The notes under the pieces were generated by a model. That model ran no database searches. It was not told the DNA's origin and was given only the letters and a program-made list of their open reading frames with translations. DNA of 36,906 bases. It comes from a virus. This document shows, in pieces, positions 2,063 to 13,403 of this stretch; within the stretch, counting starts at the first letter, position 1, and the number at the start of each line of letters is the position of its first letter. The translations under genes were made by a program, and so were the position numbers. The stretch covers positions 1-36,906 of IMG/VR virus record IMGVR_UViG_3300025598_000088, one strand, 5' to 3'.

Positions 2063-2206
2063 TCAATGGTTTTTCAGGTACAGGTATACGTTAGCCGCTA
2101 CCAGTACCGGAAAAGCGAACCACAATGGGGCGCCCATTGCGATAATCAGTAGGGCAAGAAATGCACAACCCTTGAGAATGTCATAAGTAACGTCAAACAA
2201 TGTCAT
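2063..2206 (-). CDS. Small hydrophobic membrane protein (47 aa), third gene of the RadC operon
   Basis: Starts with ATG at 2206, overlapping the stop of the upstream gene as ATGA, with GGGGGA six bases upstream as ribosome-binding site. The product is 47 residues. After a short N-terminus (MTLFDVTYDILKG) a hydrophobic stretch covers about residues 14-44 with a Gly-Ala-Pro break near 25-27, so it could form one long or two short membrane helices. It ends LKNH. I do not recognise a family. The coupled start and position before the terminator argue that it is a real gene. A membrane partner of the other two products is one possibility, but that is inference. Confidence 0.65.
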   Translation of the reverse strand: MTLFDVTYDILKGCAFLALLIIAMGAPLWFAFPVLVAANVYLYLKNH

Positions 2207-3081
2207 ACGTCCCCCATATTGACAGCGAAACCCTCTCCGGTGCGCGCTCGAACGGCGCCGATCCGCGCGACGACGGCCGGCGCCGTTATCCGTTTGAACC
2301 GTAGACCAACGAAAACCCCTTTCGGGTCGGCCGGCCGGTAATCGTGCGCATCCCCATCAATGACTCGCAATGTCCGACCGTGAATTGTCGCACGGGTCGG
2401 AACTTCGCGCCCCATGAATGGCACGGCAACATTCAACCCCATATCAAGCGCTTCCAGCATATCGGCCGCGCGATTCACCGGATCATAGCTGTACGTCAAA
2501 CGATAATTTGTTGGCAATCGCGGGACGCGAAAACGAGCCGGAATTTTAGTGTAGTCGTAAAACGACACTCTCGGGAAAGCTCGCATCATAGAGTCATGCG
2601 TGCCAGGCCTAACCCGAACCCCGTACACGTCGCGAGCCCATGCGACTAGTTCACGGGACAATTCGAGCCCCATGCGCTCATATGCGTTATCCGACGTCGC
2701 ATTCGGCCGAACGGCCGGCCGCATCCCTAGCACGCGCGCCGTCGCAACGTGCCGGACAATCTCCGAAAACCATACCGTTAAAAACGATTCCCGATCGTTC
2801 CAGTAGAACCCCGTCCTATTAATGCGGGCGCGCTCTTTGCCGACGGCATACGCCCGATTACCGGCACCGTCCAGGCAAAGATCCCGACAACCGCCGGCAT
2901 ACGCACATACCGTTTTTCCGCCGGCGCTGTCGGCCGGCGCCAAATGCAGCGGTAACGTCAAAACATTAAGTTTTGTACTCTTACTCGTTTTCGGGTTTTC
3001 TAGTGCGTCGGCAGAAAGCGCCCGCACGCCATGTTTTTTTGCGACGGCTCGAGCCGCGCGCAATTGCGCCGGCAATCTCAT
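2203..3081 (-). CDS. DUF7227/GP88-like phage protein (292 aa)
   Basis: Chosen start ATG 3081 overlaps the RadC-like stop as ATGA and has GGAAGG about seven bases upstream; an in-frame ATG at 3111 would only add ten residues. Near residues 57-80 there is a cysteine cluster, CAYAGGCRDLCL, followed by a Gly/Asn turn and basic residues. It resembles the conserved motif of phage DUF7227/gene-product-88 proteins (C-x-F/Y-A-x-x-G-C-x3-C). Further on, RPNATSDNAYE and YDYTK also fit that family as I remember it. The function is unknown; metal or cofactor binding by the cysteines is a guess. It is the middle gene of a three-gene accessory operon with RadC-like and membrane proteins. Confidence 0.6.
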   Translation of the reverse strand: MRLPAQLRAARAVAKKHGVRALSADALENPKTSKSTKLNVLTLPLHLAPADSAGGKTVCAYAGGCRDLCLDGAGNRAYAVGKERARINRTGFYWNDRESFLTVWFSEIVRHVATARVLGMRPAVRPNATSDNAYERMGLELSRELVAWARDVYGVRVRPGTHDSMMRAFPRVSFYDYTKIPARFRVPRLPTNYRLTYSYDPVNRAADMLEALDMGLNVAVPFMGREVPTRATIHGRTLRVIDGDAHDYRPADPKGVFVGLRFKRITAPAVVARIGAVRARTGEGFAVNMGDV

Positions 3082-3557
3082 ATGACGCCTTCCTTTGCCA
3101 ACGAGACGCAATCGGTGCTGGCAATAATGAGATGGTCAATCAACCGAACGTCTATGAGCGCGAGCGCATCCCTCAAACGATGCGTAATCATCTCATCCGC
3201 GCGACTAGGCGACGGATTCCCCGAAGGATGATTATGGAAAAGAATCACGGCCGCAGCGCCGTGGTTCAAGCATCCTTTCACACACTCGCGCGGATGCACG
3301 CTTGCGCCGTCAATCGTTCCCGTGAAAAGGATCTCCACCGACAAAACACGATGCCGGTTGTCCAAATAAACGAGCCCGAATTGTTCGCGCTCTAGTCCGG
3401 CCTGATGCATCAAAAACGCGCGCGCTTCGGTCGGATTGCCAATCGTCGGCCGATCCTTACTGGCGCTCGCGAACGTGTAGGCGCTCGCGCGCTCACATAC
3501 TTCTGCCGGTTTAGCGCGACGATAGCGCGCGCCAGTCTTTACGAATAATTCTAACAT
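3078..3557 (-). CDS. RadC-like JAB/JAMM domain protein (159 aa)
   Basis: The JAMM metalloprotease signature is intact: Glu75, His108-x-His110-Pro-Ser-Gly and Asp121 in HNHPSGNPSPSRAD. This is the C-terminal half of bacterial RadC (usually about 220 aa); the N-terminal helix-hairpin-helix part is missing, as in many plasmid and phage versions. Start ATG 3557 has GGAGA upstream. It is the first gene of the minus-strand operon and faces the non-coding control region. RadC-like proteins are common in mobile elements and anti-restriction islands; their biochemical role is unsettled and the old DNA-repair label is not well supported. Family call is firm, function open. Confidence 0.88.
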   Translation of the reverse strand: MLELFVKTGARYRRAKPAEVCERASAYTFASASKDRPTIGNPTEARAFLMHQAGLEREQFGLVYLDNRHRVLSVEILFTGTIDGASVHPRECVKGCLNHGAAAVILFHNHPSGNPSPSRADEMITHRLRDALALIDVRLIDHLIIASTDCVSLAKEGVI

Positions 3558-3597
3558 GATTGTCTCCGCATTCCCTTTGTTGTTGTGTCATGGCGCC

Positions 3598-3629
3598 ATT
3601 GCCATGCCGGCATAAAGTAGCATGGCAAT
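3598..3629. repeat. Perfect 10-bp inverted repeat upstream of the RadC operon
   Basis: ATTGCCATGC (3598-3607) and GCATGGCAAT (3620-3629) form a perfect inverted repeat around a 12-base spacer, 41 bases upstream of the RadC-like start. It could be a transcription-factor operator or a 5'-leader hairpin. The GGCAAT half-motif recurs at 3945, 3961 and 4354, which favours a protein-binding site. Confidence 0.6.
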
Positions 3630-3630
3630 T

Positions 3631-3676
3631 GGGGAGCATGCAAGTTTCAGGGTGATACTCCCCAAAGTATCCCTAC
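3631..3676. repeat. Left arm of large inverted repeat flanking the AT-rich core
   Basis: Contains three blocks in inverted order relative to the right arm at 3878-3913: GGGGAGCATG (3631-3640), GATACTCCC (3654-3662) and GTATCCCTAC (3667-3676). The two inner blocks with their 4-base spacer match the right arm at 20 of 23 positions. The outer block is separated by 13 bases here and by only 3 in the right arm. The arrangement looks like paired binding-site clusters rather than a simple hairpin. Confidence 0.7.
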
Positions 3677-3877
3677 ACTCGCAACTGTATGATTCGAAGT
3701 GTCTTTTATACTTTTAGGGATATGGGGATATAAAATTTAATATATAGGTGAGAAAGATATAGATATAGGGATAGATAGGTATATATACCTCTATAGTTAT
3801 ATATATATAGATAGGCAAATCATGGTCCCCGCATCCCTAGAACGAAAAAAACGCATGTGATCCATACACTTGCGCCA
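3677..3877. other. AT-rich non-coding core: candidate origin / divergent control region
   Basis: In a GC-rich genome this ~200-base stretch is strikingly AT-rich, especially 3700-3830. It holds no plausible gene. It contains a perfect 14-base palindrome AGGTATATATACCT (3777-3790), near-tandem AGATAT/AGGGAT hexamers (3755-3780), and the motif TAGGGAT(A) at 3715 and 3766 plus an inverted partial copy (ATCCCTA) at 3833. The same motif lies in both flanking inverted-repeat arms. It separates the divergent RadC operon (minus) from the HNH/terminase operon (plus). A DNA-unwinding element with initiator sites, or an operator-rich divergent promoter, would both fit. Confidence 0.55.
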
Positions 3878-3913
3878 GTAGGGATACAGTAGGGAGTATC
3901 CCCCATGCTCCCC
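3878..3913. repeat. Right arm of large inverted repeat flanking the AT-rich core
   Basis: GTAGGGATAC (3878-3887), GGGAGTATC (3892-3900) and CATGCTCCCC (3904-3913) are the exact reverse complements of the three blocks of the left arm at 3631-3676, in mirrored order. Conserved blocks with variable spacers suggest several protein contacts. Further C-rich tracts (CCTCCCC, GTCCCC) follow to about 3934. Confidence 0.7.
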
Positions 3914-4380
3914 GATCCTCCCCAACGTCCCCAAAACGTGACTTGGCAATGTCAGGCGACGGCAATGCTGAGGGGGAGAGCTTAGGGACAATCGGTTCCC
4001 GTCCCCGTCTCCGTCTCTGCCGGCACAAAATGCGCGCTTGGGCGCTAGGGGATAGCGTACGAGCCCGCCTAGTCGGCCGGCGCCGTCCGGTATATAGAAC
4101 GATAGATAGCGCGCGCTATGCGGGCCCGATCGGCCGCGCGCACGCATGCGGGCCACACGGCGCGCCGGCAGAGAGAGAGAATCACGGGATACCGTCGCGC
4201 ATCCCGTCGCTGTCGGCATTCCGTCGCACGCGCGCGAGAGGACGCCAATTTCCGATCAACCGCGCGTTTTCGGCCGGCCGAGCCCGTGGGTCGCGAGGTT
4301 ATTGCTCTGGGGGCCCCCTTTCTTGCCCCCCACCCAAAAAAAACTGGCACCTTGGCAATAGATCGTGTATACGGCTTGGC
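3914..4380. other. GC-rich, palindrome-dense non-coding leader before the HNH gene
   Basis: No convincing gene is seen in these 467 bases: a frame is open from 3943 into the HNH gene, but its predicted residues look like low-complexity Arg/Gly/Ser noise. The stretch is rich in GC palindromes (GGCGCC, CGGCCG, GGGCCC, GGCGCGCC), including the perfect ATAGCGCGCGCTAT at 4106-4119. GGCAAT motifs occur at 3945, 3961 and 4354. A candidate sigma70-type promoter, CTGGCA (4344-4349), an 18-base spacer and TATACG (4368-4373), ends seven bases before the HNH start codon, which lacks a Shine-Dalgarno. This may be a long 5' leader or part of the origin. Confidence 0.5.
4344..4373 (+). promoter_or_regulatory. 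Candidate promoter for the HNH-terminase operon (possibly leaderless)
   Basis: CTGGCA and TATACG are separated by 18 bases, and the -10-like box ends 7 bases before ATG 4381. No ribosome-binding site precedes that ATG. The spacing 6-18-6-7-ATG is identical to the promoter candidate at 10170-10199. The boxes match consensus only moderately. Confidence 0.35.
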
Positions 4381-4752
4381 ATGAAGCGCAAGTTTGATGG
4401 ATTGCTGGCTGAGTGTTGCGGGTGTCGTGAGATGCTGCCGCGAGGGCAATTTAGGAAGCGTGTGCGTGGTGGTCGTGTGGTGTTACGGCCTCGATGTCGG
4501 GCGTGTGAGAAGCCGGAGCGAGCTGCGGCGGCTGCGACGAGGCGCAAGCGTGTGCGTGGGACGTACACGGCGGCGGACGTGAGGCGGTTGTACCTGGTGC
4601 AGAATGGCCGGTGTCGGCGGTGTTTGCGGTCGCTGGCGTTGTTTGGGTATCACGTCGACCATGTGGTTCCGATTGCGAAGGGTGGATTGAATGTGGCGGG
4701 CAATTTGCAGTTGCTGTGCCCGCGGTGCAACTTGAGGAAGGGGGCGAGATGA
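4381..4752 (+). CDS. HNH endonuclease (123 aa), upstream of terminase
   Basis: An HNH nuclease core is visible near residues 78-120: CxxC at 78-81, the HVDHVVPIAKGG metal/catalytic strand at 91-102, GNLQLLC with Asn108, and CPRC at 113-116. The paired CxxC knuckles should bind a structural zinc. The N-terminus has a second Cys pattern (C12, C13, C15, C39, C42), suggesting an extra zinc finger. In many tailed phages an HNH protein encoded just upstream of the large terminase works with it in genome cleavage, which would fit this position; a free-standing homing-type nuclease is the alternative. The ATG at 4381 lacks a Shine-Dalgarno. It overlaps the next gene as ATGA. Confidence 0.85.
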   Translation: MKRKFDGLLAECCGCREMLPRGQFRKRVRGGRVVLRPRCRACEKPERAAAAATRRKRVRGTYTAADVRRLYLVQNGRCRRCLRSLALFGYHVDHVVPIAKGGLNVAGNLQLLCPRCNLRKGAR

Positions 4753-4928
4753 CCGAGCAAGATGTTGCCGAGTTGCGCGAGGAGCGTGACTGGATGATTC
4801 GGCTGACGGCGGAGTACATGCAGAGTGAGCGGTTGAATGTGCAGGGTGTGTACATGACGATCGGTCAGTGTGAGAACGCCGTGAGGGAGTTGTTGGACTT
4901 GCGGAATGTGTTGAAGGATGTGTTATGA
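4749..4928 (+). CDS. Hypothetical helical protein (59 aa)
   Basis: ATG 4749 overlaps the HNH stop as ATGA, and its own stop overlaps the next start in the same way, so the four genes from HNH on are probably translated in a coupled chain. The 59 residues are mostly charged and helical (MTEQDVAELREERDW..., ending NVLKDVL) with no Cys cluster or membrane segment. I do not recognise it. A small coiled-coil partner of the packaging machinery is possible but unsupported. Confidence 0.65.
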   Translation: MTEQDVAELREERDWMIRLTAEYMQSERLNVQGVYMTIGQCENAVRELLDLRNVLKDVL

Positions 4929-5143
4929 CCGAGCAGAAGAAGCCGCGTGGATTGGCTGCGATGACGCCTGAGCGTCGTCGTGAGGTACAGTCGATGGGTG
5001 GCCGGTCGGTGCCGTCGTCGTCGCGGTGGTTTGCGAAAAACCAGGCGGCGGCGTCTGAGGCGGGTCGGCGGGGTGGTAATCGTAAGGCGATCAAAGAGCG
5101 CCAGCGGGCGCAGGAGGCTGAAGGTGGGAATGAATTTCGGTAA
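4925..5143 (+). CDS. Small basic KGG-like protein (72 aa)
   Basis: ATG 4925 overlaps the preceding stop as ATGA. The 72-residue product has two Gly-Gly turns in a basic setting (SMGGRSVPSSSRWF and ASEAGRRGGNRKA), resembling the KGG repeat of small stress-type proteins, then a helical Lys/Arg/Glu tail. No enzyme motif is visible. A DNA-binding role is plausible from charge alone. No small terminase subunit is recognisable elsewhere; this gene or its neighbours could hide one, but nothing in the sequence shows it. Confidence 0.6.
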   Translation: MTEQKKPRGLAAMTPERRREVQSMGGRSVPSSSRWFAKNQAAASEAGRRGGNRKAIKERQRAQEAEGGNEFR

Positions 5144-5327
5144 TGCGACATCCTCGATGCAGGGTGGTACGCCGGTGCAGCGTGAGGGCTGGACGAAGTA
5201 TTTGACGGTCGAGTCGCCCTACATTGGGGTGTACACGGACATCATCGACAGCGAGACGCAGGCGTCGTGGGTGGGCACGAACGCGGACTTGTTGGCGACG
5301 GATTGGACAACGGTCGTGGGAGCGTGA
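5130..5327 (+). CDS. DUF2829 / Tad2-like protein (65 aa), candidate anti-Thoeris protein
   Basis: The 65-residue product begins MNFGNATSSMQGGTPVQREG, then W, and ends NADLLATDWTTVVGA. This matches the hallmark layout of DUF2829 proteins: a start like MNFGxAL, a 'GxxVxRxGW' strand, and a C-terminal 'DLLAxDW' motif. Some DUF2829 members are Tad2, which binds and sequesters the cyclic ADP-ribose-type signal of Thoeris defence. The family call is good; the anti-defence role is inference from family. The protein is at the short end of the usual size. The start at 5130 overlaps the preceding gene by 14 bases, with GGTGGGA just upstream. It sits in the small-gene cluster between HNH and terminase. 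Confidence 0.75.
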   Translation: MNFGNATSSMQGGTPVQREGWTKYLTVESPYIGVYTDIIDSETQASWVGTNADLLATDWTTVVGA

Positions 5328-5328
5328 C

Positions 5329-5511
5329 ATGACGAACGTAGTGACGTGGACGTGGGAAGAGATCGTGAAGTTCGCCGAGAGGGGTGTGGCGTACACGGAG
5401 GGGAACCTCGAGCATGAGGCGATCCTGGTGGCGCGGTGGCTGCATGCCGAGCGTGTGAAGGCGCTGGTTGCGGCGGGCGAGCCGGCACCGGCTGAGACGC
5501 CGGCGGAGTGA
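5329..5511 (+). CDS. Hypothetical protein (60 aa)
   Basis: ATG 5329 follows the Tad2-like stop by one base. The 60 residues start MTNVVTWTWEEIVKFAERG, then read as two amphipathic helices, and finish with a short Pro/Ala/Glu-rich tail (EPAPAETPAE). No family is recognised and no catalytic motif is seen. It completes the coupled small-gene cluster before the large terminase; the tight spacing suggests co-translation with the Tad2-like gene. Confidence 0.6.
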   Translation: MTNVVTWTWEEIVKFAERGVAYTEGNLEHEAILVARWLHAERVKALVAAGEPAPAETPAE

Positions 5512-5578
5512 CGCGGGTGTGCCGCCGCTGGTGGGTGTGTGTTGCTGACCGGCGGCGGTGCGCTTGTTGGAGGAAGAG

Positions 5579-7426
5579 GTGAAGTTCCCGTTAGACCAGT
5601 TCATGCGGTTCGCGAACGCGCTCCTGATCGACACGAAGGAGCGTGGAATGATGCGGCTTGGGCAGAACATGCTTGGGACGCAGCGGTGGTTGCTACGGCA
5701 CATCGTCGAGGGGTTCGAGAACGGGAAGCAGGAGTTCGTGACGCTGAAGTGTCGGCAGGCCGGCATCAGCACGATGTCGTTGGCGCTCGACATGTTCTGG
5801 CTGTTCCGGCACAAGGGCATGACCGGGATGCTCGCGGTGCACGAAGACACGGCGCGTGACCAGTTCCGGTCGACGCTCGAGTTGTACTACGCGGGGCTGC
5901 CGGATGCGTTCAAGCGTCCGATCAAGGATCACAACCGCAACCAGTTGGTGCTGACGACGGGCACGAAATTGCTGTACCGGGTGGCCGGTACGAAGCGGTC
6001 GGGCGGTGGATCGTTGGGCCGTTCGTCGGCGCCATCGTTCCTGCACGCGACCGAGATGAGTTCGTGGGGTGACGCCGAGGGGTTCGCGTCGCTGCGGGCG
6101 TCCTTGGCGCAGAAGAACCCGAACAGGTTCTATCACTGGGAGTCGACGGCTCGCGGCTACAACCTGTTCTACGACCAGTGGAAGGAAGCCGAGACGGCGG
6201 TGTCGCAACAGACGATCTTCGTGTCGTGGTGGGCGAACGAGTTCTATCGGTACTCGCGCGGGTCGGAGGTCTACAAGGCGTACTATGGCGCGAAGGGTCG
6301 CCCGACGAGCCAGGAACGCGAGTGGATGAAGGAGGTCAAGGCGCTGTACGGCGTCGAGATCGACGACGAGCAGTTGGCGTGGTATCGCTGGCTGTCGGCA
6401 GAACAACAGACGGACGAGTCGATCCGATTGCAGGAGTACCCGTGGACGGAGAGTCAAGCGTTCCAGGCATCGGGGTCGCAGTTCTTCAATCCTGTTGTTT
6501 TGTCGCGCCTTTACCAGGAGGTCAACCGGCTGAAGGCGCCCGAGCATTACAGGCTGACCTTCCGCAACAACTTCACGGAGACGGAGTTGGTGACGGCGAA
6601 TTCAAAGACGTGTTCGTTGAAGGTATGGGAGAACCCGAGCCGACATGCGTTCTATGTCTTAGGAGCCGATCCGGCGTATGGATCTTCAGAGAACGCCGAT
6701 ATGTTTGTCTGCTCCGTCTGGCGTGTATGGGCGGACGGGGCACAGCAAGTTGCTGAGTTCTGCGACAACAACCTGACGACCGCGCAGTTCGCGTGGGTGA
6801 TCGCCTACCTTGCCGGCGCCTACGGGCCGTGCACGTTCAACCTCGAGATCAACGGGCCGGGACAGGCGGTGTTGAACGAGTTGCAGAACATGAGGAAGGA
6901 GAAGGTGTTCGGCATGCCGGACTCGCGTCCGATCCTGAAGGACGTGTTGAAGTCAATGCGCGACTTCATGTACCGCAAGTACGACAGCATCTACGGCGGG
7001 TCGGGTGCGCTGCACACACAGACGACGTTCCAGATGAAGGAACGCATGATGAACAACATGCGCGACTACATCGAGCGAGGCATGGCAACGATCGCGAGCC
7101 GCGACCTTCTGGACGAGATGAAGTCGATCGTGCGTGAGGGCGGATCGGCGCCCGAGGCGTCCAGCAACGCGCATGACGACCGCGTGGTCGCGGCGTCGCT
7201 CGCGCTACTTGCGTGGAACGACCAGGTGCGCACCAAACTGATGGCCGCCAACGTGACGCGCAACAGCGAGTTGGAGCGGTCGCTTGAGGCGCAGAAGTCG
7301 GCAATCGAGGTACGCGGGCCGTCGATGGTTCGCAACTACCTCAAGGATCTGGGGGTGCTGGTGAACAAGAACGACGCGCTGACAACCAACGTGAGGATGA
7401 GTCGTGGCACTCGCGTCCAGCGTTAA
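5579..7426 (+). CDS. terL: Terminase large subunit (615 aa)
   Basis: ATP-driven DNA packaging motor with nuclease. N-terminal ATPase: Walker A-like KCRQAGIST (57-65 from this start), Walker B with catalytic Glu in FLHATE (154-159), coupling motif WESTARG (187-193). C-terminal RNase H-like nuclease: Asp364 in LGADPAYG, Glu423 in NLEING, and Asp533/534 in HDDRVVAAS. GTG 5579 is preferred because GGAGG lies five bases upstream; an in-frame GTG at 5558 would add seven residues but has no clear ribosome-binding site. The length is normal for the family. No small subunit gene is recognised upstream. Confidence 0.92.
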   Translation: MKFPLDQFMRFANALLIDTKERGMMRLGQNMLGTQRWLLRHIVEGFENGKQEFVTLKCRQAGISTMSLALDMFWLFRHKGMTGMLAVHEDTARDQFRSTLELYYAGLPDAFKRPIKDHNRNQLVLTTGTKLLYRVAGTKRSGGGSLGRSSAPSFLHATEMSSWGDAEGFASLRASLAQKNPNRFYHWESTARGYNLFYDQWKEAETAVSQQTIFVSWWANEFYRYSRGSEVYKAYYGAKGRPTSQEREWMKEVKALYGVEIDDEQLAWYRWLSAEQQTDESIRLQEYPWTESQAFQASGSQFFNPVVLSRLYQEVNRLKAPEHYRLTFRNNFTETELVTANSKTCSLKVWENPSRHAFYVLGADPAYGSSENADMFVCSVWRVWADGAQQVAEFCDNNLTTAQFAWVIAYLAGAYGPCTFNLEINGPGQAVLNELQNMRKEKVFGMPDSRPILKDVLKSMRDFMYRKYDSIYGGSGALHTQTTFQMKERMMNNMRDYIERGMATIASRDLLDEMKSIVREGGSAPEASSNAHDDRVVAASLALLAWNDQVRTKLMAANVTRNSELERSLEAQKSAIEVRGPSMVRNYLKDLGVLVNKNDALTTNVRMSRGTRVQR

Positions 7427-7886
7427 CACGCCGGGTGACGACAACGACCTTGCCTGGAACGACAGGCATCTTCAGTACGTTTGGCTTTGGCTGTTGCGGA
7501 ACGAGCGCAGTCCGTACTACGGGTGCCCGAGCATGCTGCTGACGGCAATGGATGTCGATCGGCCGCACTGGCCGAGCTTGCGAAAGGCTGGCCGTAGCGG
7601 CAAATACTACATCCGTTTCAGCGTCCGCGTGCGGCTCACGGCGCGGTTCAAGGTGGTGCTCTCGGGCGAGTTCCTGCCCCGCATCGACAAGCGCACCCGC
7701 AACGGCATCGTCCGCGCGTTCACGTTGCTGCCGCAAGAGACGCCGATCCCTCTGCCGATGCCCCCGTGGATCAGGGGCAGCATCAAGATCACAAGCAAAG
7801 GCATCCAGTTGATGGTCTCCAGTGCCTCGAAACCGCGTGTTTTTGGGGAAAAAAGCAGGCTTTTTAATCCGTTTGGGGTGAAATGA
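7404..7886 (+). CDS. Hypothetical phage protein (160 aa)
   Basis: GTG 7404 overlaps the terminase end by 23 bases and has GAGGATGA upstream. The product starts MALASSVNTPGDDNDLAWND, has aromatic residues near 24-30 (YVWLWLL), then a basic beta-rich middle (YYIRFSVRVRLTARFKVVLS) and a Lys/Arg-rich end. There is no recognisable domain. It overlaps the next start as ATGATG, so it is in the packaging operon between terminase and portal. A minor head or packaging accessory is possible; nothing proves it. Confidence 0.6.
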   Translation: MALASSVNTPGDDNDLAWNDRHLQYVWLWLLRNERSPYYGCPSMLLTAMDVDRPHWPSLRKAGRSGKYYIRFSVRVRLTARFKVVLSGEFLPRIDKRTRNGIVRAFTLLPQETPIPLPMPPWIRGSIKITSKGIQLMVSSASKPRVFGEKSRLFNPFGVK

Positions 7887-8299
7887 TGGCTATTTTGAAA
7901 GAATTTCGGTGCGCCGCTCACGGGCCGTTTGAGGCGTTCGTCAAAGGTGATAAGGTGCCAAAATGCCCTGCCGGATGCTCTGCGCGGTGGGTTTCGCGCG
8001 AAATTCGCACCGCTCCGGCGGCTCGAGGCAACGTCACGGGCCGCATGGACAACCTCCAGAAGGACTTGGCGGCGGATTTCAAGTTGCGAGACCTCAAGGT
8101 GGACAAAGAGGGCGGCAACAGCGTCATCAACGAGTTGCGAAAGGGCGAGACGCAGGACTACAGCGCATACTGGGCGCCCGCAAACAAACTGAACATCAAG
8201 GAGTTCAGTCCGACAGCGGCTCTGTCATCGCTGAACGCGCCGAAGAAGGCACCGACCAAGATTGAAGGCAGTCACCGAGGGCCGCTACCGGAGGTTTGA
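7883..8299 (+). CDS. Zinc-ribbon-like phage protein (138 aa)
   Basis: The N-terminus carries a metal-knuckle pattern: FRCAAHG (C-x2-H, residues 9-13) and KCPAGCS (C-x3-C, about 27-32), like the small zinc ribbons of FmdB-type proteins. The rest is charged and probably helical or disordered, ending in KIEGSHRGPLPEV. It is translated from ATG 7883 (or the adjacent ATG 7886) overlapping the previous stop. It lies directly before the portal gene, a position where many podophages encode a similar zinc-finger protein of unknown role. Confidence 0.6.
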   Translation: MMAILKEFRCAAHGPFEAFVKGDKVPKCPAGCSARWVSREIRTAPAARGNVTGRMDNLQKDLAADFKLRDLKVDKEGGNSVINELRKGETQDYSAYWAPANKLNIKEFSPTAALSSLNAPKKAPTKIEGSHRGPLPEV

Positions 8300-9948
8300 T
8301 GAAGATTCCAACAGACGACATCGAGCGTTTCAACTTCGTGATGGACACGCGCACGAAGTGCACGGCCAGCCGCGAGGATCGGAAGAAACTGTACGCGACT
8401 CAGCGATCGTTCTTCCTGTTCGGTTGCGGCCCTGACGCCGACACGCGGGTCATCAACAAGGTCTATCCGCACATCGACCAGTTGGCCGGCCTTATGTACT
8501 CGTCGGAGACGACGCGGTTCAGCATCGACATTCCGCCGTCTGTGTCAGATCTGATGAAAGAGAAGATCCCGCCGCTGATGCAGAAACTCAACGACACCTG
8601 GCACATGTCGAACAGCGACCTTGTGTTCTCACAGGCGCTGCTGTGGTCGTTTGTTTACGGGTCCATGTTCGTCAAGACCCGCATCGCTGTCGGCGGACAG
8701 ATTGAGCCGTATGTCGTCGAGCCGCATGACCTTGGCGTGTTGCGCGAGGACGTGTGCGGCCTCTGGAAGCAGGAAGCGTTCTGCCAGTATTACTGGGTCA
8801 CCGAAAGCCAGATGGAAACCCAGTTGAAGGAGATTGACCATCCGAAACTGGCGCGCATCATGGAGACGGTGAAGGAGCGCCCGAAGCAGCAGCATCCTGA
8901 GATGCAGCAGATCCTGAACCGCATTGAGACGGCGGCTTCAAGCCCGACCATGATCGGCAACATCAACTTCGACCTGTCGACGCCTTCGCTGTACCGGCCC
9001 AAGGTCGCGGAGAAGTTGGTGCAGATGTCGGAGATTTACATCTGGGATTCGGAGAAGGCCGACTATCAGGTCTTCACGGTCGCAGACCCCGGCGTCATCA
9101 TCTTCGATCGCCCGCTCGAGCGCATGTTTTTGAAGAACGAGTCGCCGATCATTCAGGTCTGCCCAAACCCGGCGCACGACTACTTCTGGGGCTACAGCGA
9201 GGTCGACAAACTGATTCCGCTCCAGCGCATGCGTAACGAGCGCATGGAGCAGATCACTCACATGATGAACTTGCAGGCGCGACCGCCGAAGTTCGGATCT
9301 GGCTTCCAAGGCGACGTGTCGGAGATCCAAGACACGATGGATTCGCCGTCTGGCCTCGTTGTCGGCGACATGCCAGGTGCGAAATTGGAGACCGTCTCGC
9401 CGCAGATCCCTGACGATTTGTTCCGAGAGATCCGCGAGATCGACATGATGTTCGAGGAGATGTCCGGCATCACGAACGTCATCCAAGGCAAGGGCGAGGC
9501 CGGCGTGCGATCGCAGGGCCACGCGGCCAACCTTGCGCGTCTGGGCTCAAGCCGCGCGAAGAAGCGTGCGCTCTTCATCGAAGACCAGTTGGAAAAACTC
9601 GCGACGCTGTACATGCAACTCATGCAGGCATACGACACGGAGACGCTGCGCGACAACAAGGGCATCGAGTTCATCGCGGAGCAGTTCACCGATCGGTACA
9701 TTGTCAAGGTAGACGCGCACAGCAACAGCCCGATCTTCCAAGAGGATCAGCGTGCGTTGGCGTTCGAGTTGTTCAAGGCGAAGGCGATTGATCGTGAATC
9801 GCTTCTTGACCTGCTTGACGTTCCCATGAAGGAACTGCTAAAAACGAGACTGCGAACGAAGATCGAACCCGCTGAAGCCGCAGCCGCAGAGGCTGAGAAG
9901 CAGGCGGTTGCTCAAGGTGCCAAGGTTCACAAGAAGGGAGCGCGATAA
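8299..9948 (+). CDS. Portal protein (549 aa)
   Basis: The dodecameric channel at the capsid vertex. Length, position after the terminase and before scaffold and capsid, and sequence features fit podovirus portals: acidic/aromatic N-terminus, YPHIDQLAGLMYSSETTRF near 53-71, a PNPAHDYFWGYSEVDKLIPL wing segment, QRMRNERMEQI, and a SRAKKRALFIEDQLEKLA helix before the crown. ATG 8299 has GGAGG four bases upstream and overlaps the previous stop by one base. The C-terminal 40 residues are Ala/Glu/Lys-rich. Its stop overlaps the start of a 13-residue ORF as TAATG. Confidence 0.88.
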   Translation: MKIPTDDIERFNFVMDTRTKCTASREDRKKLYATQRSFFLFGCGPDADTRVINKVYPHIDQLAGLMYSSETTRFSIDIPPSVSDLMKEKIPPLMQKLNDTWHMSNSDLVFSQALLWSFVYGSMFVKTRIAVGGQIEPYVVEPHDLGVLREDVCGLWKQEAFCQYYWVTESQMETQLKEIDHPKLARIMETVKERPKQQHPEMQQILNRIETAASSPTMIGNINFDLSTPSLYRPKVAEKLVQMSEIYIWDSEKADYQVFTVADPGVIIFDRPLERMFLKNESPIIQVCPNPAHDYFWGYSEVDKLIPLQRMRNERMEQITHMMNLQARPPKFGSGFQGDVSEIQDTMDSPSGLVVGDMPGAKLETVSPQIPDDLFREIREIDMMFEEMSGITNVIQGKGEAGVRSQGHAANLARLGSSRAKKRALFIEDQLEKLATLYMQLMQAYDTETLRDNKGIEFIAEQFTDRYIVKVDAHSNSPIFQEDQRALAFELFKAKAIDRESLLDLLDVPMKELLKTRLRTKIEPAEAAAAEAEKQAVAQGAKVHKKGAR

Positions 9949-9989
9949 TGCGTCACAAGCGGTCGGCCAAGCGCAAGATGCGCCGGTAA
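9948..9989 (+). CDS. Micro-ORF encoding a 13-residue Arg/Lys-rich peptide
   Basis: ATG 9948 overlaps the portal stop (TAATG). The peptide reads MRHKRSAKRKMRR, with 8 of 13 residues Arg or Lys. GGGAG in the end of the portal gene (9937-9941) may serve as ribosome-binding site at six bases. It could be translated by re-initiation after the portal. A very similar 13-residue basic peptide follows at 10039. No family is known to me. DNA condensation or binding inside the head is a guess based on charge. Confidence 0.45.
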   Translation: MRHKRSAKRKMRR

Positions 9990-10038
9990 AGGAACTCAGG
10001 GCATAAGGGGTTGGCGATCTAACACAGGAGACACGCAC

Positions 10039-10080
10039 ATGGCTAAGCGTCGTGGTGGTCGCAAGCACAAGCGCAAGTAA
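10039..10080 (+). CDS. Micro-ORF encoding a 13-residue Arg/Lys-rich peptide with a strong ribosome-binding site
   Basis: ATG 10039 is preceded by AGGAGA at 10026-10031, seven bases away, as good a Shine-Dalgarno as any in this genome. The peptide is MAKRRGGRKHKRK: 9 of 13 residues are Arg or Lys. The frame ends in TAA just before the terminator at 10132-10161, so it closes the portal transcription unit. Its strong ribosome-binding site argues for translation despite the size. The same MAK... basic style recurs in the 50-residue protein at 30503. Confidence 0.55.
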   Translation: MAKRRGGRKHKRK

Positions 10081-10131
10081 GCGGTCTGCCGTAGCGGACT
10101 CATGTCTCGCTCCGGTTTCACCGTCGTGCAG

Positions 10132-10161
10132 GCCGCTGCGCTAATCCCGCAGCGGCTTTTT
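10132..10161 (+). terminator. Intrinsic terminator after the portal unit
   Basis: A perfect 9-bp stem, GCCGCTGCG (10132-10140) and CGCAGCGGC (10148-10156), with a 7-base loop and five T residues directly after. It separates the packaging/portal unit from the head genes and is followed at once by a promoter candidate. Confidence 0.9.
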
Positions 10162-10169
10162 CATGTCTG

Positions 10170-10199
10170 TTGACATTGTTCAAAATCGCGGGGTAGAAA
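10170..10199 (+). promoter_or_regulatory. Sigma70-like promoter for the head-gene operon
   Basis: A perfect -35 box TTGACA (10170-10175), an 18-base spacer and TAGAAA (10194-10199). The -10 box ends seven bases before ATG 10207, which has no Shine-Dalgarno, so the transcript could start at or just before the AUG. It lies nine bases after the terminator's T-tract, which supports a real transcription unit boundary. Confidence 0.6.
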
Positions 10200-10206
10200 C
10201 ACGGCC

Positions 10207-10599
10207 ATGAGCGTACCTCCAGAAATCGCACAAGCACTTGCAGGCGGGGCCGCCGGCGGAAAACCGCCGATGCCGACCACGCCGTCACCCGCTGCTGCGC
10301 CGATGATGACGCCGCAACCGAAAGGTGGGAACGAAGCCGGCGCTCGAGCCGACGTGCAAGTGACCATCAAGAAACTCACGATGACCTTGCAGACGTTCCC
10401 GCCCGGTACGGAACAGGGCGACGCGATCATGAAGGCGATCGCCGCGCTCACGAAGGCGTTCGGACAGACCGCCAGCAAGGACAAGGAATTGATGCCTGCT
10501 GAGATCATGCAGGCCGTCTCGGGGCTTGCTGGCCCCGGAAAGCCGCCGCCGGGTCTGCCGGCGCCAGCCGGCCCCGCTCCACTCCCGACCCCCATGTAA
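10207..10599 (+). CDS. Pro/Ala/Gly-rich hypothetical head-region protein (130 aa)
   Basis: The first gene after the internal promoter. The N-terminal 45 residues and the C-terminal 25 are low-complexity Pro/Ala/Gly/Met (for example GGKPPMPTTPSPAAAPMM and the ending PLPTPM). Between them is a helical segment (VQVTIKKLTMTLQTFPPGTEQGD, then KAIAALTKAFG). There is no ribosome-binding site. Similar Pro-rich small proteins occur between portal and capsid in other podophages, but the function is unknown. A scaffold or portal-ring partner is possible. Confidence 0.6.
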   Translation: MSVPPEIAQALAGGAAGGKPPMPTTPSPAAAPMMTPQPKGGNEAGARADVQVTIKKLTMTLQTFPPGTEQGDAIMKAIAALTKAFGQTASKDKELMPAEIMQAVSGLAGPGKPPPGLPAPAGPAPLPTPM

Positions 10600-10611
10600 G
10601 GAACCGCCATC

Positions 10612-10836
10612 ATGCCTGGTGATCGTCTGTTTGACCCGTCGAGTTCGCTCACGATTCGTCCGCCGCAGGACGACGCAAGCCCGAACGACAAGATCCGCAA
10701 CCCGCCCCGTTACATGCAGTACGGCGGCCTTGAAGGTCAGAACGCGCGTGGCTTCATGCCGAACGACATGAAGATCCAGACGCCGGGTAACACGCAGATG
10801 CGTGTGCCGTTCGACCGCAAGAAGCAGCGGTTCTGA
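10612..10836 (+). CDS. Hypothetical small head-region protein (74 aa)
   Basis: ATG 10612 has AAGGA about ten bases upstream. The 74 residues are polar and probably disordered, with many Pro, Asn and Gln (MPGDRLFDPSSS..., ...TQMRVPFDRKKQRF). I do not recognise a family or motif. It is closely spaced with the DUF6321-like gene that follows after one base. Probably a minor virion or assembly protein by position only. Confidence 0.55.
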   Translation: MPGDRLFDPSSSLTIRPPQDDASPNDKIRNPPRYMQYGGLEGQNARGFMPNDMKIQTPGNTQMRVPFDRKKQRF

Positions 10837-10837
10837 T

Positions 10838-11089
10838 ATGGCCGGCGCTTGGCAGCGCAAGGAGGGCAAGAGCCCTCGCGGCGGCCTGAACGAGAAAGGC
10901 CGCCGTTCGCTGCGAGCGCAGGGTCACAACATCAAGCGCCCACAACCGGGCGGCGGCCCTCGCAAGCGTTCGTTCTGCGCCAGAATGAGCGGGATGCGAG
11001 GGCCGATGAAGGACAGCAAGGGACGCCCGACCCGCAAGGCCAAGGCGCTCTCACGCTGGAAGTGCAAACGGCGCAGTAGTCGACGATAA
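10838..11089 (+). CDS. DUF6321-like basic phage protein (83 aa)
   Basis: The sequence matches the DUF6321 layout known from other tailed phages: AWQRKEGKSPRGGLNEKGRR near the N-terminus, PQPGGGPRKRSFCARMSGM in the middle, and a Lys/Arg-rich end (ALSRWKCKRRSSRR). It is very basic and has two cysteines. The family has no established function; neighbouring head genes and its charge suggest a nucleic-acid-contacting virion component, which is inference. ATG 10838 follows the previous stop by one base. Confidence 0.7.
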   Translation: MAGAWQRKEGKSPRGGLNEKGRRSLRAQGHNIKRPQPGGGPRKRSFCARMSGMRGPMKDSKGRPTRKAKALSRWKCKRRSSRR

Positions 11090-11100
11090 GGGGTAACGAC

Positions 11101-11613
11101 ATGGCATCGCTTGAAGATCTACCGGAGTCGGAGCAGGCAAAAGCCCTCGCTCTGTACCAGTTCGTGCAGGGCAACCCCGACGTTGCCAAGGATCTGCGCC
11201 GCAAGGCGCGTGCAAAGAACCCGAACATGCCCGTGCCGGATTCGGACATGCTTGAAGATCACTTCAACTCGGAGATCGAGACCTTGCGGTCCGAACTCAA
11301 GAAGCGTGACGAACAGGCGCTCGAGCAGTTGCAGACGCAGCGACGCGCTGACGCGCACGCGCGAGTGCGGGCCGCCGGCTTCGAGCCGGAGCAGGTCGAA
11401 AAGACCATGATCGACAACAAGATCGGGGACTACGATGTCGCCATTCGCTTCATGCGGCAGGAGCGCGAACTCGCGCCGGCAACGCCGGAAGCCATCACGC
11501 CGATGTCCCTGCCGGATGGCAAGGATCTCTGGGCTGACAAGAATCGTTGGGCAAAGACGCAGGCGTTCGATGCCATCAACGAACTGAAAGCGAAAAGGTT
11601 AGGGGCTAGGTGA
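11101..11613 (+). CDS. Scaffolding-like protein (170 aa)
   Basis: Located directly before the major capsid gene and composed almost wholly of charged helices (for example SEIETLRSELKKRDEQALEQ near residues 57-76), with a short basic C-terminus (NELKAKRLGAR). These are the usual features of a podovirus scaffold protein, which guides coat assembly and is then lost. The sequence itself is too diverged for a family call, so the assignment rests on context and coiled-coil character. AAGGGG lies upstream of ATG 11101. Confidence 0.65.
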   Translation: MASLEDLPESEQAKALALYQFVQGNPDVAKDLRRKARAKNPNMPVPDSDMLEDHFNSEIETLRSELKKRDEQALEQLQTQRRADAHARVRAAGFEPEQVEKTMIDNKIGDYDVAIRFMRQERELAPATPEAITPMSLPDGKDLWADKNRWAKTQAFDAINELKAKRLGAR

Positions 11614-11672
11614 ACAAACGCTGTCGCGGGGATGTGCTGGCAGCCAAACTTTTGACTCAGGAGTAAACGACC

Positions 11673-12686
11673 ATGCCAGTGTTTGGACAAGGCATCGTCC
11701 CGGCAGCGGGCCCGATTGCCAACGAATTGACGTACGTCACACGGCGTGCGTTTATCCCCAAGATGGTGGTGCAGTTGTACCAGGCGTCGCCTGTTATCGC
11801 TGCGCTGCTCGGCAACTCGCAGACGGCCACCGGCGGTGTCTCGTCGGTCTCGGTGCCGGTGCAGGGCCAGCCGTTCGTCAACAGCCAGTGGACGGACTAC
11901 AGCGGCTCGTTCCAGCAGCCGCAGGCGCAGCAGGGTGCGTTCCTGGCTGAGTTCAACTTGAAGGCGATCGTGACGCCGATCCCGTTCCTCGGAATGGAAG
12001 GCGCTGTGCAGATGGATCACGCCATCATCCCGCTGCTCGAGGCGCGTATGAACGACGCGACCAACAGCATGATCGACGCGATGGCGAACGCGCTGTACAA
12101 CAACACCACGAACACGCAGCAACTTCTTGGACTGCCAGCGGCAGTAGACGACGGCACGAACACCGTTACCTATGGAAACATCAACCGCACGGCCTACCCG
12201 TGGTGGCAGTCCAAGATCTACTCCACCAGCGGCAACCTCAACCGTCTGAAGGCAGTGACCTACATCGCCGCCGCGCAGAAGTACGGCTCGGAGATGCCCT
12301 CGTTCGGCGTCGTCGGTATCGGCACCTACCTCGGTCTCGCGCAGGACTTCCTCCAGACCGGCGTCGAGACGTACCAGATCTCGCCGGGACAGGGCTTTGA
12401 CAGCGACGGCGACCGTCCGCGGTCGGCCTTCCGTGCGATCGACATTGCCGGCGTGCCGGTCTATGCCGATCCGTACTGCCCGGAGGGAACGATGTTCCTT
12501 CTGAACAGCAACTACCTCAACCTGTACGTCCACGACCAGGCGTCGTTCGCGTTCACCGGGTTCGAGTCGTTGCTCTCCAATTACCAGTTGGGTTATGTCG
12601 GAGCGGTCTTGACGCTGTGCGAGTTGGTGCTGACGAAGCCCAAGACGTGCGTCAAGGTCACTGGCCTTACCCCGGTTAGCATCTAA
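11673..12686 (+). CDS. Major capsid protein (337 aa)
   Basis: Probable HK97-fold coat protein. Supporting features are the position after the scaffold-like gene, AGGAG before ATG 11673, and a typical capsid pattern: N-terminal helix with YVTRRAFIPKMVVQLYQASP, a beta-rich core (SSVSVPVQGQPF), a central helical spine (LLEARMNDATNSMIDAMANALYNN), and a domain with IAGVPVYADPYCPEGTMFLLN, which is a strand-turn common in phage coats. The C-terminus ends in a beta strand (KVTGLTPVSI). Only a few cysteines and no protease gene are seen, so capsid maturation probably does not use a separate protease. Confidence 0.82.
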   Translation: MPVFGQGIVPAAGPIANELTYVTRRAFIPKMVVQLYQASPVIAALLGNSQTATGGVSSVSVPVQGQPFVNSQWTDYSGSFQQPQAQQGAFLAEFNLKAIVTPIPFLGMEGAVQMDHAIIPLLEARMNDATNSMIDAMANALYNNTTNTQQLLGLPAAVDDGTNTVTYGNINRTAYPWWQSKIYSTSGNLNRLKAVTYIAAAQKYGSEMPSFGVVGIGTYLGLAQDFLQTGVETYQISPGQGFDSDGDRPRSAFRAIDIAGVPVYADPYCPEGTMFLLNSNYLNLYVHDQASFAFTGFESLLSNYQLGYVGAVLTLCELVLTKPKTCVKVTGLTPVSI

Positions 12687-12698
12687 GGGAGAAGCGCA

Positions 12699-13403
12699 AT
12701 GTCCATTCTCAAGATTGCGGTTGCGGGAACCGATTACTACACCGAACAAACGACCACTCAGATCCCCATTTCGGCGGGTGCGAGCGGTACGTTCTCGGCG
12801 GCGAACAACATCGCAACGATCACGACCACCTCGGCTCACGGTCTGACGTTCTCGCCGTCCGCTGGCACGCTTCCGAACTACTTCGTGCAGTTCGGTGGCA
12901 CCACGTCGGGTCTTACCGGAACCGGCATCCTCGTCGGCAACAACTTCCGTATCCTGTCGATCCCGTCCACGACGACGTTCACGATCTACACGACCGTGAC
13001 GGCGGCGACGGTCACCTCGATGACGATCATCCCGGTGTTCTTCCCGACGTTCATCGCGGCGCTTCTGTCGGGTGCGGCAACCAACAACGTCGTGAACTCG
13101 ACCACGGGCGCGTTCGGCGTGTCGGGCAACTACCCGAACTACGGCAGTTGCTTTGCCAACTTGGTGTTGGGTTCAAACCTCAGCGGCGTGTACGGTGCCA
13201 CCAACTCGGGTACGCCGTGGCTTGACGCCACGACGGGCAACACCCCGTCTGTTGGCAACGGTGTCACAGGTACGTCGGCGGGTCAGAACCGTGTTGGCCT
13301 TGGTTCTGCCTTTGGCGGCATTATGAACCAGCGGTTTGGTCCGCAGGACTACCTGATTGCCAGCGGCACGTCGGGAACGTCGTACATTTCAATCATCAAC
13401 TAA
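12699..13403 (+). CDS. Virion structural protein, probable head decoration (234 aa)
   Basis: Follows the capsid gene with GGGAGAAG before ATG 12699. The product is rich in Thr, Ser, Gly and Asn and predicted beta. Residues about 27-105 (AANNIATITTTSAHGL..., SIPSTTTFTIYTTV) resemble the small beta domain with an 'AHGL...TTFT' pattern that is often seen in phage structural proteins; a similar stretch lies in the tail protein at 27119. Decoration of the capsid is the likeliest role, from position; a minor tail protein is possible. Confidence 0.55.
   Translation: MSILKIAVAGTDYYTEQTTTQIPISAGASGTFSAANNIATITTTSAHGLTFSPSAGTLPNYFVQFGGTTSGLTGTGILVGNNFRILSIPSTTTFTIYTTVTAATVTSMTIIPVFFPTFIAALLSGAATNNVVNSTTGAFGVSGNYPNYGSCFANLVLGSNLSGVYGATNSGTPWLDATTGNTPSVGNGVTGTSAGQNRVGLGSAFGGIMNQRFGPQDYLIASGTSGTSYISIIN

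Follow-up and report, generated by a model that had tools for sequence, protein, structure and literature searches.

We show that the open frame at positions 5130–5327 (+ strand) of the window, by which we mean the whole stretch of viral DNA analysed here (a virus record of 36.9 kb that includes genes for primase/helicase, terminase, portal and major head protein), is a real gene, and that its 65-residue product belongs to the Tad2-like family PF11195, within which it represents an undescribed short lineage of a large and already known family. Tad2 proteins are used by other phages to soak up bacterial alarm molecules, and signals of three kinds have been linked to them, namely gcADPR, His-ADPR and cyclic dinucleotides. 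Considering the analysis as a whole, we suggest that the window protein is, on balance, probably a miniature and divergent signal-binding counter-defence protein of the Tad2 family, a putative role to which no ligand is assigned. The protein would be made during infection, would assemble into a multimer as Tad2 does, and the multimer would bind and hold a small nucleotide-type signal from a host defence system; by analogy with Tad2, the signal would be held without being cut and the defence effector would stay off. Since it combines the same core with a stripped-down pocket, the protein may offer a natural way of testing how small a Tad2 can be and still bind a signal, and screening the short-lineage alleles could reveal a new signal. 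Our computations cover the family, the fold (from a model whose alignment included canonical Tad2 sequences), conservation by purifying selection, and cassette exchange; the sponge mechanism of Tad2 itself has been described elsewhere (PMC12043709).

The gene and its family

The initial annotation had placed here a frame with the layout MNFG...G-x-x-V-x-R-x-G-W...DLLAxDW and had proposed a DUF2829/Pfam search as a check. The frame, running from ATG to TGA and encoding MNFGNATSSMQGGTPVQREGWTKYLTVESPYIGVYTDIIDSETQASWVGTNADLLATDWTTVVGA, is present, and the search returned PF11195 (Tad2-like, formerly DUF2829) as the sole Pfam match, clear at 39 bits against a cut-off of 25 (profile positions 1–73 of 73, E 1.2e-9), which rules out a chance resemblance. 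Residues G13, R18, W21, D53, D58 and W59 are invariant across 26 aligned sequences, so that the family core of G, R, W and D.(L)A.DW is retained. The first three lie in the alpha1-beta1 segment of the domain (MNFG...G..V.REGW, residues 1–21, positions 5130–5192, +; helix 3–11 and strand 16–18 in the predicted structure) and the last three in the helix motif DLLATDW (residues 53–59, positions 5286–5306, +; predicted helix 51–55). When the protein was compared with PDB sequences by phmmer, ModTad2 came first (E 9e-4), followed weakly by AcrIIA7, SPO1 Tad2 and SptTad2, and a profile built from six short sequences alone found seven PDB sequences at E<=10, all of them Tad2 or AcrIIA7 (best E 2.6e-7). 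Matches in PHROGs are to families of unknown function, and NCBIfam gave no match to the protein.

The start at 5130 is supported by a ribosome-binding region (GGAGG...GAAGG, positions 5113–5124, +), whose GGAGG is conserved 6–12 bases upstream of the ATG in all six phages compared, together with the finding that the frame in close relatives opens only about 10 codons before this ATG; for the latter reason a GTG at 4980 was rejected as the start. The gene overlaps by 14 bases (5130–5143), just as had been claimed, a small upstream gene at 4925–5143 (+) that serves as the locus marker in relatives. The description of this upstream gene as KGG-like holds as a motif resemblance and finds no counterpart in Pfam, where no match appeared even at E 10. 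Overlaps of 4 bases link it to the small genes at 4381–4752 (an HNH endonuclease) and 4749–4928, all upstream of the Tad2-like gene. Downstream lie a gene for a 60-residue protein of unassigned function (5329–5511, +) and the gene for the large terminase subunit (TerL; 5579–7426, +), which was our anchor for finding syntenic relatives. Further upstream, positions 3558–4380, some 800 bases in which no convincing gene is seen, are GC-rich with CG- and AG-repeat stretches and separate a minus-strand block from the plus-strand late genes; on the minus strand, positions 2203–3557 carry a GP88-family gene and a RadC-like JAB-domain gene, adjoining the plus-strand packaging and structural genes.

Small genes of this family are not new as such. 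Homologues of AcrIIA7/DUF2829 had been found in six phyla by 2019 (PMC6739104), a rhizobium phage with a Tad2-like gene was reported in 2026 (PMC13299392), and other members of 60–65 residues are already in databases, similar small genes having been annotated by depositors. The suggestion that the gene could be missed by gene callers is accordingly doubtful, given that comparable family genes of 71–78 residues were annotated by depositors in several phages. Two proteins of similar length, from Klebsiella phage KpS110 (A0A2K9VAK2, 60 residues) and Siphoviridae ctg5k4 (A0A8S5M8A0, 65 residues), resemble the window protein in predicted fold (TM 0.70–0.79 by query) at about 21–24% identity, and no function was reported for either in the literature searched.

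Predicted fold and shortened pocket

The AlphaFold2 model of the window protein, built as a monomer (as were all predicted structures) from 26 aligned sequences, reached a pLDDT of 83.8 and a pTM of 0.70, with the element order alpha-beta-beta-beta-beta-alpha-beta. Tad2 and AcrIIA7 account for every one of its 23 best PDB matches (TM 0.74–0.80 by query), a resemblance that leans on the canonical Tad2 sequences included in the alignment, and the next, unrelated entry follows at E 1.5. Indeed, a model of the relative L003 made from six short-lineage sequences alone was of low confidence (pLDDT 73), and a PDB comparison gave nothing for it at E<=0.001. The Tad2-like fold, as had been anticipated, is thus borne out by the model and is well supported by sequence and model together, though not by an independent model.

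Within this predicted fold the pocket region is shortened. Throughout the short lineage, exactly 31 residues separate the core W from the D of DLL..DW, compared with 53 in SPO1 Tad2 and ModTad2, 65 in SptTad2 and 71 in AcrIIA7; most other family members compared have 38–55 residues, and three further divergent ones have 32–34. All four kinds of solved Tad2 carry W-N-G-K-x-M, where the short lineage has W-T-[KDN] (W-T-K-Y in the window protein), and the loop before the last helix, which reads SQTD in SPO1 Tad2, AcrIIA7 and SptTad2 and SVSD in ModTad2, is TNAD, VNAD, TNPD, TNVD or TSAD. Intermediate forms occur in Pseudomonas phage MR4 and Vibrio phage JSF38 (NGKGL, spacing 38) and in Synechococcus phage S-CBWM1, whose gp144 (78 residues, annotated as hypothetical; 47.9 bits to PF11195) likewise lacks WNGK and SQ, with W-T-D and PRNSD there instead, but differs from the window protein in its longer N-terminus and longer spacing. 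The earlier remark that the protein is shorter than usual, so that its specificity could differ, is therefore supported by sequence, the NGK loop and the SQ being replaced in every short relative.

What this may mean for the ligand can be judged from a review, according to which beta4, alpha3 and three loops (beta1-beta2, beta3-beta4 and beta4-alpha3) make up the gcADPR pocket, and an insert lying between beta2 and beta5 provides the cyclic dinucleotide site (PMC12043709). This insert, present in some Tad2 proteins only, is absent from the window protein (spacing 31, against 65–71 in AcrIIA7 and SptTad2). With the beta1-beta2 loop reduced, the beta2-beta3 insert missing and the beta4-alpha loop changed, as compared at the level of these loop descriptions rather than of the exact ligand-contact residues of SPO1 Tad2, binding of cyclic dinucleotides appears unlikely and binding of gcADPR of the SPO1 type uncertain.

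These features bear directly on whether the protein could be a Tad2 in the strict sense, that is, a tetramer sequestering the type I Thoeris signal 1''-3' gcADPR as in SPO1, which would be a special case of signal binding. SPO1 Tad2 (8sme, 8smf, 8smg; SPO1L3 Tad2, WIT26397.1) shares with the window protein the PF11195 domain and the G, R, W, D.(L)A.DW core, the window model matches its gcADPR-bound structure (TM 0.75–0.80 by query), and the beta4-alpha3 segment W...DLLATDW is well preserved. Against this, the two proteins differ in spacing (53 residues from W to DVLA, against 31), in the loop that lines the gcADPR pocket, shortened and stripped of W-N-G-K (NGKNM against TKYLT), and before the helix (SQT against TNA, with TN, VN or TS across the short lineage); of the two, SPO1 Tad2 is the one shown to bind gcADPR. 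Moreover, a TerL search of 84,980 species genomes found no relative, and hence no Thoeris-bearing host, nor was any other defence system linked to the phage. We consider the strict reading unlikely. The proposal of the initial annotation that this is an anti-Thoeris protein sequestering a cADPR-type signal gains no support beyond family membership, as neither a Thoeris system nor a host was linked to the phage and the pocket parts are reduced or missing, and it is weakened further by the other activities recorded in the family. ModTad2 from a Myroides odoratus prophage (8v3e, 9eib), the best single-sequence PDB match and alike in its core motifs but unlike the window protein in its spacing, NGKGM loop and SVSD, binds His-ADPR of type II Thoeris (PMC13299392). 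AcrIIA7 (8kbi–8kbm, 9kzr) and SptTad2 (8wjd) share the PF11195 fold (TM 0.74–0.76 by query) and, unlike the window protein, carry the insert linked to cyclic dinucleotide binding; AcrIIA7, moreover, is a reported Cas9 inhibitor with a DUF2829 domain (PMC6739867, PMC6739104), and this domain is the known link between the window protein and that activity.

Relatives, selection and cassette exchange

A TerL search of IMG/VR gathered 28 contigs, two of which (L001 and L028) are 99.8–99.9% identical to the window across the aligned region. A Tad2-like gene occupies this position ahead of the terminase, with the same small gene immediately upstream of it, in seven contigs (L003, L031/L032/L036, L037, L034 and L035), which carry five distinct alleles, all short; one representative of each allele passed the Pfam cut-off (34–37 bits), and the gene was recovered again in contigs searched along their whole length. 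In L040 and L043, which are more distantly related, the versions found are sub-threshold and lie before rather than after the KGG-like gene, and several relatives with sequence upstream of TerL showed no Tad2-like gene there. Two Manatee Spring phages have 44–46% TerL identity; in one of them (L085) no gene before TerL is annotated as Tad2-like, as judged by annotation only, and the record of the other begins at TerL. A nucleotide search with window positions 4300–12700 gave no match among phage records.

Between the window and L003 the Tad2-like protein is the most diverged of those compared (37% identity, against 88% for TerL, 72% for the upstream, 69% for the HNH and 46% for the downstream protein). 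L003 and L031 are 98–100% identical over about 600 bases upstream and 93–100% over about 540 bases downstream, but only 47–72% in the stretch that begins near codon 13 of the Tad2-like gene and takes in the following gene. The opposite pattern is seen between L031 and L037, with identities of 95–100% in the Tad2-like gene and upstream of it (their Tad2-like proteins differ by one residue) and of 67–83% inside TerL. These patterns indicate that the Tad2-like segment was exchanged on its own, and that the Tad2-like gene and the next gene move together, as one small cassette, among phages that are otherwise nearly identical. Where TerL begins (about 2700 in L031), the L031/L037 identity falls sharply from about 99% to about 70% at the nucleotide level, a recombination breakpoint.

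L031 lacks the next gene and has instead a Pro/Thr-rich tail on its Tad2-like protein. Such Pro/Thr/Val-rich C-terminal tails, ending in KGK or SRK, are seen in L031 (2239–2514; also in L032, L036 and L037), L034 and L035, and resemble the end of the L003 downstream gene, as if two genes had been fused by deletion.

The Tad2-like gene is nonetheless kept as a protein. Between L003 and L031 dN/dS is about 0.18 (dN 0.178, dS 1.009), and differences at codon positions 1, 2 and 3 number 13, 9 and 25, so that purifying selection on the gene is shown by computation. These values, with their third-position excess, the 31-residue spacing fixed in all short alleles and the conserved ribosome-binding site make it highly improbable that we are looking at a Tad2 relic being lost through decay, an idea that the short length, the sub-threshold versions in L040 and L043 and the relatives with no such gene upstream of TerL might otherwise encourage.

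A doubtful but possible alternative is that the Tad2 fold is reused for a role unrelated to nucleotide signals, such as attachment to some protein of the host or the phage, or inhibition of CRISPR as has been reported for AcrIIA7. The reduced pocket elements and the DUF2829 domain of AcrIIA7 are compatible with this, as are the versions near the same place in the distant L040 and L043, and Tad2-like domains also sit inside much larger phage proteins (200–270 residues), from which it follows that a sponge role is not necessary for every family member. In one of these, a 251-residue protein of phage csAssE-Sib (L099, 246–1001), a short Tad2-like domain with a spacing of 34 forms the C-terminal part. 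Yet AcrIIA7 itself has been solved with a cADPR isomer and cGG bound (8kbk), and fast divergence with cassette exchange suits a defence-facing role. Cassette exchange is, on the other hand, common among phage genes of many functions.

Returning to the putative signal-binding counter-defence protein, the swap of alleles in otherwise near-identical phages singles out this locus as a place of possible adaptation by phages to some feature of the host. A stronger version, in which a lineage of minimal sponges of the Tad2 family, their pocket rebuilt, captures a defence signal not bound by known Tad2 and is exchanged as an allele cassette with the downstream gene as its partner, seems to us improbable.

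Finally, the short-lineage profile gave one match, a Tad2-like gene (56 bits) at 3001–3231 of L095; this Acidobacteria MAG contig is possibly of phage origin and was not used as a host clue. Two different Tad2-like genes lie in tandem in L074 (469–944; 23.5 and 30.2 bits to the Pfam profile) and in L078 (469–941), and the small genes downstream of these tandems look ParB-like or terminase-like by eye.
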